Source of the DNA: a virus
DNA: 33,263 bases
Strand: one strand, 5' to 3'
IMG/VR virus record: IMGVR_UViG_3300049893_000685
Location: 1-33,263 of that record
Below are positions 6,577 to 31,921 of this stretch, in pieces (within the stretch, counting starts at the first letter, position 1; each line of letters begins with the position of its first letter). The notes under the pieces were generated by a model. The model saw nothing but the letters and a program-made list of their open reading frames with translations. It did not search any database and was not told the DNA's origin. A program made the position numbers and the translations under genes.

Positions 6577-6599
6577 AAATTACTACGGATAAACAAATC

Positions 6600-6618
6600 A
6601 TTGTTATTATTATATAAT
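6600..6618 (+). promoter_or_regulatory. Putative late promoter motif upstream of scaffold and capsid genes
   Basis: ATTGTTATTATTATATAAT in the 59-nt gap after the LamG gene and 17 nt before the scaffold ATG. It is identical over 19 bases to the copy at 9029-9047. The two are otherwise in unrelated sequence, which argues for selection. A GGAT element sits 14 nt upstream of TTGTTA, as CGAT does at 9016. Confidence 0.55.
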
Positions 6619-6635
6619 TTAGAAAAAACTCAATT

Positions 6636-7385
6636 ATGAACGCAAAACAAGTATTAAGCAAGATAATGACACTTTTAAACAAAGATGAAGTGGAATTAAC
6701 ATATGCAAAATTAGCAGACGGAACAATCGTAGAAAGTCCAACTTTTGATGTTGGCGAAACCCTTGATGTAGTTTCAGAAGATGGAACTAAATCACCAGCT
6801 CCTAACGGATTTCACGACCTTAAATTAGAAGGTGCAGAAGGTGAAGAAGTTTACATCAAAGTAAAAACTGAAGATGGTAAGATTGTTGAAAGAGAAAATG
6901 TAGAAATGGCTGCGGCTGATATTTCTACTGAAAAAGTAAAAGACCTTCCTGAATCAGGAACTTACACAAAAGATGATGAAGTTGCTGACCCAGCAGGTTC
7001 AGAAATCAAAGGTAGTTTAAAGATGGCTGAAGAAACTGAAAGTGTAGAAACACTTCCAGAAGATGCAGGCGAAGATTTAAAACCTGAAGATGAAAAGCCT
7101 GAAATTGAAATTGAATTAGGTAAGAAAATGGAAGAGATGGCTTACAGAATTGAAGAGATGGAAAAGAAGATGGCTAAAATGGAAGCGATGATGCCAGCAC
7201 CTGATGAGAAGGTAGCACAAGAAGTTGAAGAGCAAATGGCTAAAGTTGAGGAAGAAGAACTTCCAAAGTTAGATGGTGCTCCGGTAGATGAAGCGATGAA
7301 ATTCTCTATTGAAACAAATAAGAAAAATTTCGGTAAGAAGGTTGTAAACTCACAATCTAATTTCTTATCAAAACTCTATAAATAA
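6636..7385 (+). CDS. Putative head scaffolding protein
   Basis: A 249-aa very acidic protein, rich in Glu, Lys and Met. Residues about 15-90 form a small beta-like domain (TYAKLADGTIVESPTFDVGETLDVV). Residues about 100-150 are a disordered acidic linker, and about 155-215 a long charged coiled coil (GKKMEEMAYRIEEMEKKMAKMEAMM). A short basic C-terminus (KKNFGKKVVNSQ) could contact capsid subunits, as in known scaffolds. It lies 29 nt upstream of the major capsid gene, the usual place for scaffold. No protease domain is visible in it. The prohead protease candidate is far away at 22262. The scaffold call rests on composition, coiled coil and position. Confidence 0.6.
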   Translation: MNAKQVLSKIMTLLNKDEVELTYAKLADGTIVESPTFDVGETLDVVSEDGTKSPAPNGFHDLKLEGAEGEEVYIKVKTEDGKIVERENVEMAAADISTEKVKDLPESGTYTKDDEVADPAGSEIKGSLKMAEETESVETLPEDAGEDLKPEDEKPEIEIELGKKMEEMAYRIEEMEKKMAKMEAMMPAPDEKVAQEVEEQMAKVEEEELPKLDGAPVDEAMKFSIETNKKNFGKKVVNSQSNFLSKLYK

Positions 7386-27836: not shown

Positions 27837-28535
27837 TTATTTACATACATCTGCTCTTTCAATAAGAACATAATCGTTATCATAATCTATGTTGTTTACA
27901 TCATAATTCATAAAAACATATGTTAGTTCACCATATGAGTTTTTTACTGATTTACTTTGTTCAACTCTAAATCCGTATCTACGAAAGAACTCCATTTGTT
28001 TTCTGATTGGTGTTGTTCTATCATTCAATTTACCTACACATTCTAAAAACATTTTTAGTTTATACCCACTCTCTAATGAAAGAGTTTCTAATATACAAAC
28101 AACTACACTCATCATAATAGAACCCATACCTTTGTAAATACTATTGACAGCGGTTATCTCTATTGAAGAACCACGTGGTGATAATGAAACGAAGTTATCT
28201 TCGTGGCCAAAGACTATAGTAATTGTTGGGTGAACTTGGATTTTATCTTTCACTATACCTTTTGAAATATGGCAAATTGGGTGAACTGCATCTTTTAATT
28301 GAGGATACCATTCAGCAATGTATTCCTTTATCTTATGTATATTATCACACACATATAAATAAAGTGGGTTTAATTCACCAGTTTCAAAATAAACACCTTT
28401 AATAACTTTGTGAGAATGTTCAAATACCGAACCATCATTTAAGATAGTTATTTTGTATTGTTTCTCATTTTGTTTGAACTTAATTCGTTCTTCGTTTATT
28501 AGTGAACGAATTTGTTTTGGATTTTCTACTAACAT
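27837..28535 (-). CDS. GNAT-like acetyltransferase family protein
   Basis: A 232-aa protein when started at the ATG at 28535 (MLVENPKQIRSLINEER). An in-frame ATG at 28577 would add 14 residues (MICVYYCLKSKTNI) that look less protein-like. Both lie downstream of the promoter at 28607. The C-terminal half has GNAT signatures: a strand 'RGSSIEITAVNSIYKGMGSIMMSVVVCILETLSLE', with 'YKGMGSIMM' in place of the acetyl-CoA loop Q/R-x-x-G-x-G/A, then 'KLKMFLECVG' and 'PIRKQMEFFRRYGFRVEQS', the usual 'FY.+.GF' ending. The N-terminal 100 residues are unassigned. It may acetylate host or phage protein, a common early take-over strategy. It is transcribed alone and leftward from beside the origin. Confidence 0.5.
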   Translation of the reverse strand: MLVENPKQIRSLINEERIKFKQNEKQYKITILNDGSVFEHSHKVIKGVYFETGELNPLYLYVCDNIHKIKEYIAEWYPQLKDAVHPICHISKGIVKDKIQVHPTITIVFGHEDNFVSLSPRGSSIEITAVNSIYKGMGSIMMSVVVCILETLSLESGYKLKMFLECVGKLNDRTTPIRKQMEFFRRYGFRVEQSKSVKNSYGELTYVFMNYDVNNIDYDNDYVLIERADVCK

Positions 28536-28606
28536 AATGTTTGTTTTAGATTTTAAACAATAATATACACATATCATAACCCATATGTATTAAGGGTGAT
28601 ACCCCA

Positions 28607-28638
28607 TAAAGATACGAAAACTTTTTTATATTACCAAA
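28607..28638 (-). promoter_or_regulatory. Early promoter element, leftward, for the GNAT-like gene
   Basis: On the - strand: TTTG at 28638-28635, 20-nt spacer, then TATCTTTA at 28614-28607. The expected start point near 28600 lies within a short inverted repeat, GGGTGATACCC (28594-28604), which may be an operator. Confidence 0.75.
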
Positions 28639-28639
28639 T

Positions 28640-28830
28640 ATATTTGTATATTATTTTATAACTCGTTGATAATCAATACTATAAAGTTATCCACATTTTA
28701 TCCACATTTATAAGCGATTGAAAATCAATGGTTTATAACTTATTGATTATCAATGAGTTATGTAAACGGTTGAAAATCAACTAATTATGCAACTAATTGA
28801 TTATCAATGACTTATGAAAGGGGGGTATTT
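28640..28830. other. Candidate replication origin with two DnaA boxes
   Basis: AT-rich, gene-free segment between divergent early promoters. It contains two perfect DnaA boxes, TTATCCACA at 28687-28695 and 28698-28706, 11 bp apart and on the same strand, set into an iteron array (28666-28807). No replication initiator, helicase or primase gene is visible in this window, so recruitment of host DnaA is plausible. Function not shown. Confidence 0.6.
28666..28807. repeat. Five palindromic 11-mers (iterons or operators)
   Basis: Copies of TTGAWWATCAA at 28666-28676 (TTGATAATCAA), 28718-28728 (TTGAAAATCAA), 28743-28753 (TTGATTATCAA), 28770-28780 (TTGAAAATCAA) and 28797-28807 (TTGATTATCAA). Start-to-start distances are 52, 25, 27 and 27, so the spacing is about 26 bp with one slot skipped, where two DnaA boxes lie. 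Several copies are followed a few bases later by TTATG or TTATAA. The regular phase (about 2.5 helical turns) suggests an initiator or repressor binding array. Confidence 0.8.
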
Positions 28831-28871: not shown

Positions 28872-28903
28872 TTTGGTAATGTAAAATAGTTTCCCTATAT
28901 TAC
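28872..28903 (+). promoter_or_regulatory. Promoter element, rightward, for the non-coding RNA
   Basis: TTTG at 28872-28875, 20-nt spacer (GTAATGTAAAATAGTTTCCC), then TATATTAC at 28896-28903. The expected start point is near 28908. No gene starts in the following 500 nt, which is why this promoter points to an RNA gene. Confidence 0.75.
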
Positions 28904-28907
28904 ACTC

Positions 28908-29384
28908 ATTAAAATCTAAACTTTGAATAAGGTATTATATAATAGAAGTAGGGTTGGAATACAACGCACTTTACCTACACACTAAATATAATAAGAAATT
29001 GAGTCACAGCGCAGTAGTTGAAATACTTAAAAGACTGGAAGGTGTCTCCTATGATAATGTATAATGGTATTCATTTGATTAGGATGTTGGTGAATAGATT
29101 GAATAAACCAAGTGTTGGCTCCGTTAGTAAGTAGTCAATGATATACTCAACACTTGATTATTATTTTTTTTAATAGTAATCACGAAAGGTGTTGTGTATC
29201 CATTAGTAAGAAAGACAGCAATGCAATAAAGAATTAATACAGGATTAAAAAATATTGTTTATATTAATAGTGAGACATAATTAATACTGCTTCAGTCGCT
29301 ATGACAACACTTATAGGCAGTGTCTCACTTTATATAATCAGGGGGATGTAGTTAGTGCCATTGCTACAATCCCCCATTTTTTTT
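28908..29384 (+). ncRNA. Large structured non-coding RNA candidate
   Basis: About 475 nt from its own promoter (28872-28903) to an intrinsic terminator (29341-29384), with no ORF above 27 codons. Visible pairings: GTAGG 28948-28952 with CCTAC 28974-28978, enclosing GTTG/CAAC; CAAGTGTTG 29109-29117 with CAACACTTG 29148-29156 (9 perfect pairs); AGTGAGACA 29269-29277 with TGTCTCACT 29321-29329 (9 perfect pairs), enclosing CTGC/GCAG and GTC/GAC. GTGTTGT 29189-29195 can pair with ACAACAC 29304-29310, inside the loop of the last stem, a pseudoknot. Two long segments repeat (see findings). It is larger than usual phage small RNAs. Large RNAs such as ROOL and GOLLD are known in phages, but I cannot match this one to them. 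Confidence 0.65.
29341..29384 (+). terminator. Intrinsic terminator of the non-coding RNA
   Basis: GGGGGAT 29341-29347 pairs with ATCCCCC 29369-29375, extended inward by GTAG/CTAC (29348-29351 with 29364-29367), followed by eight T (29377-29384). It lies just upstream of a new promoter at 29403, as expected for a separate unit. Confidence 0.9.
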
Positions 29385-29402: not shown

Positions 29403-29434
29403 TTTGGCAATGTAAAAAAGTTTCTGTATATTTA
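29403..29434 (+). promoter_or_regulatory. Early promoter element, rightward, for the HNH gene operon
   Basis: TTTG at 29403-29406, 20-nt spacer (GCAATGTAAAAAAGTTTCTG), then TATATTTA at 29427-29434. Expected start point near 29440, giving a leader of about 30 nt before the ATG at 29470. It is the fourth copy of the shared element. Confidence 0.75.
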
Positions 29435-29469
29435 TACTAAATGATTATATAATTTTAAAAACAAATTCA

Positions 29470-30069
29470 ATGAGCACAGAATTAATTACAGTAGAAACAC
29501 CTGAACAAATTTGTGGTAGAGAACAATTCAAACCACTATACAAAGTATTTTCAGAAACAGGTAAAGAATTAAACTTTAAAGGTAAGTATTTAGTTGGAAA
29601 CAATGGAACGGTAATCGCTTTACCTAAAAAAACAAAACATCACAATATGACCGGTTTTGTTTGTATTCCACGACCAACTAAAACGAATCACTTGCAAATT
29701 CAATTAATGAATAATGATGGTGAAAAGGTATTCGTATATATTCACAGATTAGTAGCATCAGTATGGTTGAAAAGAAAAAAGTGGCAAACTGATGTAATGC
29801 ATTTAGATGACAATCCATTAAATAATAATATCTACAATATCAAGTGGTGTACCCATTTGGAAAATATGCAAGATAAAGTTCGTAAAGGTAGACATAGAGG
29901 AAATAAAATAAAATACTCTAATGAATTATGTATGGAAGTTTACCAACAAAGAGAGAGTGGTAAATCAGTTAAGGAACTTATGGTTTTATACCCAGATATA
30001 AGTAGAACAGTACTATACCATATGACTTCAGGCCATATTCTAAAACAGAGAGGAATTATAAAAGTATAA
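29470..30069 (+). CDS. HNH endonuclease-family protein with HTH C-terminus
   Basis: A 199-aa protein. After an N-terminal segment of about 60 residues (YLVGNNGTVIAL looks like a NUMOD-type strand), residues about 86-135 carry an HNH_3-type core: 'FVYIHRLVASVWL' (His92), 'DVMHLDDNPLNNNIYNIKWCTHLENM' (His111, Asn118-Asn123), which fits the 'hHRLVA..F' ... 'V.H.D.n..NN...NL.W.T...N' pattern. Residues about 150-190 (NELCMEVYQQRESGKSVKELMVLYPDISRTVLYHMTSG) look like a resolvase-type helix-turn-helix. It may be a homing endonuclease or a phage nuclease for packaging or host DNA breakdown. First gene of the rightward early operon, with its own strong promoter. HNH identity is good; role uncertain. 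Confidence 0.7.
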   Translation: MSTELITVETPEQICGREQFKPLYKVFSETGKELNFKGKYLVGNNGTVIALPKKTKHHNMTGFVCIPRPTKTNHLQIQLMNNDGEKVFVYIHRLVASVWLKRKKWQTDVMHLDDNPLNNNIYNIKWCTHLENMQDKVRKGRHRGNKIKYSNELCMEVYQQRESGKSVKELMVLYPDISRTVLYHMTSGHILKQRGIIKV

Positions 30070-30072
30070 TAT

Positions 30073-30366
30073 ATGAAAAGAACATCAATAACCGGAATGA
30101 CAAAACATCAATTCAAAAACAAATGCCTCATCCTTTGGTGGGATTTCAGAAAACACATTCGCATTGGTGATTGGGTTGAAGCACTGATACATACAATTAC
30201 ATTAGGATATGGAGAAAGAATTGCATTAGGGATTGCAAAGGTATTCGGAAAGAAATCATGTGGTTGTTGTGAAAGAAAACAATGGTTAAACCGATTAACT
30301 AATCCAAATGCAAATGAGAAGTGTGACCAAATAGATATGGGTGGATGGTGGCCAAATTATGATTAA
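30073..30366 (+). CDS. Small Cys-motif protein of unknown function
   Basis: A 97-aa protein. A helical stretch (DWVEALIHTITLGYGERIALGIAKVFG) precedes a compact cysteine motif, KKSCGCCERKQWLNRL. I recognise 'I...G..IA..I.K..G...CGC..RK.WLN.L' from small proteins in Bacteroidota phages, with unknown function. The three clustered cysteines (C80, C82, C83) could bind metal. The N-terminal part is moderately hydrophobic, so a weak membrane association cannot be excluded. It follows the HNH gene by 3 nt and overlaps nothing if the next gene starts at 30368. Confidence 0.55.
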   Translation: MKRTSITGMTKHQFKNKCLILWWDFRKHIRIGDWVEALIHTITLGYGERIALGIAKVFGKKSCGCCERKQWLNRLTNPNANEKCDQIDMGGWWPNYD

Positions 30367-31363: not shown

Positions 31364-31921
31364 ATGATAGATTCAGGCTCAATCCAATATTGTGAATGTC
31401 AAAAGAGATTAGAAGGTTTATATATTCAATCTCACACATGGTTAGTAAGAGAAGCAAAGAAACTTACAAAGCATACTGAAGAAGCAGAAGCATTAGTAAG
31501 TGACCTGTATGTTTACCTATTAGAGAAATGTAATCCTAAAATATTTTATTCAACAAATACTTTCAACCTATTCTATTGTAATAAGTTTTTATACTCTCGT
31601 TGGATGAATAAAGTTAAGATACTCAATCGGACAAACTTGGTAGAAACAATAAATACAGAAATAGAAGAAATACCATATGACTGGGAAAGAGATACACTAA
31701 TAAATCAGACACATCAGCAAGTAATGAATGAATTACAGGCTTTAGAAAGAACAAGAATGTGGCCACAGGCAAAGATATTTCAGATATACTTTGATAGTGA
31801 AGATACAATGGAACAAACTGCAAGAAAGATAGGAATAAGTAAATCAACAACATTCCTCGCAATAAAAAAAATAAGAAGTTATCTAAAAGAAGTTATACCT
31901 AATCCAAATGAAAGGACCTAA
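31364..31921 (+). CDS. RNA polymerase sigma factor-like protein
   Basis: A 185-aa protein with the two-part layout of small (ECF-type) sigma factors. Residues about 25-56 (TWLVREAKKLTKHTEEAEALVSDLYVYLLEK) fit region 2.1-2.2, 'L...A.k.t....EAEdLV.d.f..L..'. Residues about 132-174 (MWPQAKIFQIYFDSEDTMEQTARKIGISKSTTFLAIKKIRSYLKE) fit region 4, with the helix-turn-helix at about 146-174. The part between is shorter than in bacterial sigma factors and lacks a clear region 2.4, as is common in phage sigma-like regulators. It precedes the zinc-ribbon gene and the terminase genes and is followed by the late-type motif at 32478. I infer that it reads that motif. Confidence 0.65.
   Translation: MIDSGSIQYCECQKRLEGLYIQSHTWLVREAKKLTKHTEEAEALVSDLYVYLLEKCNPKIFYSTNTFNLFYCNKFLYSRWMNKVKILNRTNLVETINTEIEEIPYDWERDTLINQTHQQVMNELQALERTRMWPQAKIFQIYFDSEDTMEQTARKIGISKSTTFLAIKKIRSYLKEVIPNPNERT

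Follow-up and report, generated by a model that had tools for sequence, protein, structure and literature searches.

The window, i.e. the whole stretch of DNA analyzed here (33,263 bases), is the IMG/VR virus record IMGVR_UViG_3300049893_000685, a dsDNA phage that encodes a portal, a head maturation protease, and a terminase. Its TerL gene is truncated by the right end of the window, so the record is incomplete. Relatives of this TerL occur in phages of Bacteroides and Flavobacterium, the promoters of the window are of the Bacteroidota type, and the phages carrying the sRNA family described below appear to infect Bacteroidota. A sigma-factor-like ORF (31364-31918; PHROG 1740, E 3e-7) shares an operon with terS/terL and is strongly conserved within the window's phage group, with no match among the GTDB genomes and phage isolates searched. 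The region 28662-28815, left of the RNA studied here, is origin-like, with repeats (TTGATNNTCAA/TTGAAAATCAA) and a DnaA-box-like TTATCCACA; similar repeats also occur in L007, L055, L095, and L098.

An earlier note had proposed a non-coding transcript with its own promoter (28872-28903) and a strong terminator (29341-29384) in this region, and this observation was confirmed for positions ~28907-29384. Specifically, a promoter of Bacteroidota type by sequence, TTTG-20-TATATT, runs from TTTG (28872) to TATATT (28901) on the plus strand, with a predicted transcription start at ~28907-28909, and near-copies of it lie elsewhere in the window, at 28609-28642 (minus strand) and, by eye, at ~27800 (minus strand) and 29403-29432. 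These sites and 28872 share a repeated phage promoter, TTTGGTAATGTAAAAnAGTTT..TATATTT, whose spacer is unusually conserved. The transcript ends at an intrinsic terminator, GGGGGAUGUAG..CUACAAUCCCCC-U8 (29341..29384, plus strand), made of a stem at 29341-29375 and T8, and every relative has an equivalent hairpin. The claim that no ORF exceeds 27 codons is true for ATG starts, but a frame from TTG at 28955 to TAA has 36 codons. The full 477 nt fold only weakly better than shuffles (z -1.85, and the reverse strand does the same), and 29245-29384 folds strongly better than chance (z -4.86). As folding of the whole 477 nt is no proof of structure, we searched for relatives.

About 130 loci were gathered with the TerL and sigma-like proteins; the leftward gene 27837-28577, also tried as an anchor, gave no relatives. 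BLAST across these loci found broad sharing limited to the 3' part of the transcript, and a search for the shared arrangement returned 25 real copies vs 0.65 on average with shuffled flanks. A covariance model, R1, has 39 matches in 96 sources and 52 in 70 sources, with one copy per genome except for a weak second match in G003. In L013, a second weak match to the sRNA model (6580-6672, minus strand, 28 bits) has the antisense orientation and precedes the strong match by about 120 nt. Overall, the family comprises about 48 loci from related phage contigs in the part of the collections that was scanned. The conserved unit is a core of ~85 nt plus the terminator. In the window, the core, which forms the P1-P2 hairpin, occupies 29252..29340 on the plus strand (cmsearch 65.3 bits, E 2e-12), and its conserved 5' bulge reads AUAAUUAAU (family consensus UUAAYNAAUA). 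Nine loci have exactly 9 nt between the end of the -7 box and the core, so the minimal RNA (the L085 type) would start at the core and measure ~125-150 nt; elsewhere, the core follows a stop codon by 15-16 nt or comes after a longer stretch of non-coding sequence.

Searches of Rfam at gathering and permissive thresholds returned nothing above the gathering score except one tRNA elsewhere in L085, and DNA similarity searches in phage records and plasmids gave short or unrelated matches only. The 3' third of the window transcript does belong, as the note had suggested, to a new class of non-coding RNA: a family that is absent from Rfam, has two covarying helices, and is carried by apparent Bacteroidota phages.

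The first of these helices, P1, is the stem noted earlier at 29269-29277/29321-29329; its 5' strand GUGAGAC (29270..29276, plus strand) pairs with GUCUCAC at 29322-29328, and all 7 pairs are double-changed in relatives. The 5' strand of P2, ACUGCUU (29286..29292, plus strand), pairs with 29315-29321, with compensatory GC/CG/UA exchanges in 4 of 7 pairs. MAFFT misaligned the 3' arms of the full sRNA, so the core was trimmed ahead of alignment. Because the R1 matches lean towards the structure, a second model, R2, was made from sequence alone, and its 34 matches were aligned with no structural information. Of the P1 and P2 cells in this R2 alignment (n = 34), 95.4% are paired and 107 are double-changed, vs 28-49% pairing and 24 or fewer double-changed cells in controls slid by one to three columns. 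RNAalifold recovers both helices unaided, and individual sRNAs fold with z -3.2 to -5.7, with the seed described below in a loop. Some clades are also predicted to form a terminal helix, P0, and a small helix, P3.

The intrinsic terminator that follows every core has stem sequences that are unrelated between clades. Its loop, of 10-12 nt, holds G(C/U)(C/U)A in all members (e.g. AGUGCCA, UUUUUUGUCAUUC, and UUUGCCAAU), and because it is conserved on unconserved stems we suspected a pairing seed. In the window, the candidate seed GUGCCAUUG (29355..29363, plus strand) pairs with CAAUG(A)GCAC at 29468-29477, over the start codon of an HNH gene, in a predicted duplex of 9 bp with one bulged A (-11.3 kcal/mol). 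L023, the nearest relative of the window, has a longer and unbroken match (CGCAAUGGCA against UGCCAUUGCG).

The gene in question encodes an HNH endonuclease of 199 aa (29470..30069, plus strand; PHROG 59 HNH endonuclease, E 9e-25; PF13392) and has its own promoter between the sRNA and the coding sequence (29403..29432, plus strand; TTTG-20-TATATT, 10/12 in the scan). An endonuclease gene is present in 48 of the 48 sRNA loci examined. A clade including L131 has a related endonuclease without the sRNA; there, the upstream gene is followed closely by the endonuclease gene, and neither a terminator nor an sRNA separates them. Nearly all relatives also encode, 3' of the endonuclease, a small conserved protein (IKIGDWVEALIH..CGCCERKQWLN; 30073-30366 in the window) without a match in Pfam.

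Across the family, the seed is complementary to sequence around the start codon of the neighbouring gene, be it HNH or GIY-YIG. When each of 11 near-complete genomes has all its ORF starts ranked by the energy of their duplex with the genome's own seed, the gene adjoining the sRNA comes out as the best group. Over 45 loci, matched seeds and targets average -10.07 kcal/mol vs -7.22 (sd 0.36) for permuted seeds (P ≤ 5e-5, a value that is too small because relatives share ancestry and are not independent), and the result is the same with 21 distinct seeds. Sliding along the target gene confines the effect to the start codon (z -8.8, with six of the 45 targets re-assigned by eye, a step that the permutation test did not include); at other positions, |z| does not exceed 3.3. 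Of the 30 ortholog groups compared, the two endonuclease groups, GIY-YIG and HNH, are alone in reaching z of about -3; the replication-type upstream gene (DUF1376), considered as a general target, is not among the groups with signal.

Seed and site also change together. For example, exact swaps include GUCAUU/AAUGAC, GCUAUU/AAUAGC, UGCCAAU/AUUGGCA, UGCCAUGUUU/AAACAUGGCA, and GCCAUUGCG/CGCAAUGGC, and the site moves between a position over the AUG (AUGGCA, AUGACA) and one just upstream, with complementarity kept. The signal is uneven among loci: only 17 of 45 have their own site within the top 5% when every ATG site of the locus is considered, and pairing is weak in some members (L013, L092, and L007). 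A second pairing, between the core or sRNA 5' end and the target 5' UTR, gave P = 0.08, and we make no claim of one.

Such a site could in principle be reached in cis, with a read-through RNA from the upstream promoter folding its terminator loop over the next start codon, or with the element serving as an antitermination or attenuation site. Most loci do have the sRNA and its target on one strand, 85-137 nt apart, and the homing endonucleases of T4 and Aeh1 (I-TevI, segB, and mobE) are under negative translational control by hairpins that sequester the RBS, with T4-type endonucleases repressed by cis hairpins on early transcripts (PMC2988022). The likeness is that translation of phage GIY-YIG or HNH endonucleases is held down by RNA pairing, which is predicted here; the difference is that the T4/Aeh1 hairpin lies inside the mRNA, whereas here it belongs to a separate sRNA. 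Hairpin and endonuclease start do not share one RNA in the window, where the target's promoter intervenes, nor in a divergent subgroup of five loci (L078, L084, L087, L113, and L140) that have the sRNA on the opposite strand. In this subgroup, the best or near-best sites belong to two genes, the GIY-YIG gene and the one that opens the divergent operon (in L078 and L113, with the sRNA divergent from its target, the site is the best of the locus), and given the strand arrangement the sRNA must act in trans there. In L028, L029, and L054 an extra HNH gene is inserted between the two, and it is the second gene that keeps the site. We therefore regard a cis-acting leader as improbable.

The earlier note, which mentions the large ornate RNAs GOLLD and ROOL, also placed the region in a large non-coding RNA class, perhaps a new one. 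On a reading of this kind, the full ~475 nt would act as one functional unit in a decoy or packaging role. A single transcript does span promoter to terminator, and its 5' part is structured and nearly invariant. This part, which we call module A (28935..29210, plus strand), is a multi-hairpin 5' extension of ~270 nt found in 5 of ~48 loci, namely the window, L023, L028, L100, and L031; a promoter lies at the equivalent place ahead of it in L023, L028, and L100. A pattern search for module A returned only 3 contigs, with none in the genome-contig collection. The transcript 28907-29384 is a composite of 5' module A and the 3' sRNA (~29245-29384), and the conserved unit is the latter. Most relatives lack module A, other loci carry other 5' parts, and in L100 a 69-aa ORF separates module A from the core. 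Covariance models of ROOL, GOLLD, and other large Rfam RNAs gave no match at the gathering threshold or at E ≤ 10, and no conserved unit of several hundred nucleotides emerged. We find a single large RNA very unlikely.

Within module A, support for the stem noted at 29109-29117/29148-29156 is weak: it accommodates the A-to-G changes of L023 and L028, but L100 breaks 3 of its 9 pairs. One compensatory change in L100 favours a competing hairpin there, GUUGGCU/AGUCAAU, and so supports a hairpin within the module; the branched stem at 28948-28978 hardly varies among copies. Module A is 97% identical over 160 nt to those of L023, L028, and L100, vs 41-75% identity for core and terminator; against L100, TerL is 44% and the core 41% identical. 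As such, module A has probably been exchanged between phages recently, i.e. moved horizontally.

We also find it very unlikely that a small protein of 36-41 codons at ~28955-29065 explains this 5' part. An ATG-started frame of 41 codons is present in L023, L028, and L100, but the window copy has lost the start (ATA for ATG), and all 5 differences in the frame change amino acids. A peptide search with this frame retrieved the same 3 contigs only and no codon-diverged relative, so coding by it is not supported. Least credible is a DNA-level reading, in which the complementary sites form an inverted repeat bound by the endonuclease as an operator or homing site, as in I-TevI autorepression: I-TevI binds an operator (PMC2988022), and the seed and the start site do flank the endonuclease promoter as short inverted repeats, but the repeat follows unrelated HNH and GIY-YIG families, changes freely in sequence, always lies in the terminator loop of a covarying RNA, and can have its halves more than 800 bp apart.

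We consider it likely that these loci encode a new family of phage antisense sRNAs that block translation of the adjacent homing-type endonuclease, with the window copy lying behind an acquired module A. The structure, the seed, its complementarity, and the co-variation of seed and site are demonstrated by comparison among relatives. In the proposed mechanism, the sRNA would be transcribed, in the window as the 3' end of a ~475-nt RNA with module A at its 5' end. The P1-P2 hairpin would act as a scaffold, and the terminator loop would expose the seed with its G[C/U][C/U]A core. The seed would then pair in trans with the start-codon region of the endonuclease mRNA, occlude the 30S subunit, and keep the endonuclease low or late; the position of the site points to repression rather than activation. 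Among the roles that had been listed for this RNA, regulation is the one to which the evidence points, as antisense control of the next gene, and a decoy or packaging role finds no support.

To our knowledge, few phage sRNAs have a demonstrated target, and most of these come from temperate enterobacterial phages; we know of no earlier sRNA dedicated to holding down a homing-type endonuclease. If true, our reading would make this the first known; it would also be an sRNA family that is widespread among aquatic phages, uncultivated and apparently lytic, with a structure and a target tested by evolution. The family offers a seed and a target whose pairing can be tested directly, together with a natural series of compensatory changes in the seed.

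Among known systems, the P22 sar RNA and lambda OOP RNA are small phage antisense RNAs that control a nearby phage gene and overlap their targets on the opposite strand; by contrast, the sRNAs described here do not overlap the target and offer a short seed only. In keeping with the functional class of phage trans-acting antisense sRNAs, the family has a conserved seed that co-varies with its target. The c4 RNA of phages P1/P7 (also the P4 CI RNA) is a phage structured antisense RNA that pairs with the translation start of a neighbouring gene (PMC12197685). Like it, our sRNAs are phage-encoded, structured, and made beside the target whose start they are predicted to pair with. The c4 RNA is cut out of its target operon's leader, and the gene under its control encodes an antirepressor for lysogeny, whereas the sRNA family has its own promoter or a 3'-end origin, a seed in the terminator loop, and as target an endonuclease of apparently lytic phages. 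Promoter and terminator suggest that the sRNA is not processed from the target operon's transcript, and the C4 antisense RNA covariance model gave no match at gathering or at E ≤ 1-10. In function, the c4 RNAs of phages come nearest to the sRNAs described here, and we do not claim common family membership. The CfrI antisense RNA of cyanophage S-PM2 adjoins a homing endonuclease gene and runs between psbA and that gene (PMC12197685); no scaffold and seed arrangement like the present one is described for it.

More speculatively, and we think this rather unlikely, the locus may be a modular RNA-controlled cassette. Unrelated endonucleases landing behind the sRNA would gain a seed-matching start site, the sRNA would also shut off endonucleases with a matching site in co-infecting phages, thereby serving as an RNA antitoxin or as immunity against homing, and the mobile 5' modules, A and others, would be cargo RNAs swapped at the same site. 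The site upstream of the core is a slot for exchangeable non-coding modules. L005, L009, and L016 have a different, GC-rich 5' module there (GTAGGGAAACCTATGGGGGCTCTG...GGTAAGGGGGGTGTAAG), whose location between promoter and core was read in L005 and L009, and L035 carries yet another 5' module ahead of the core.
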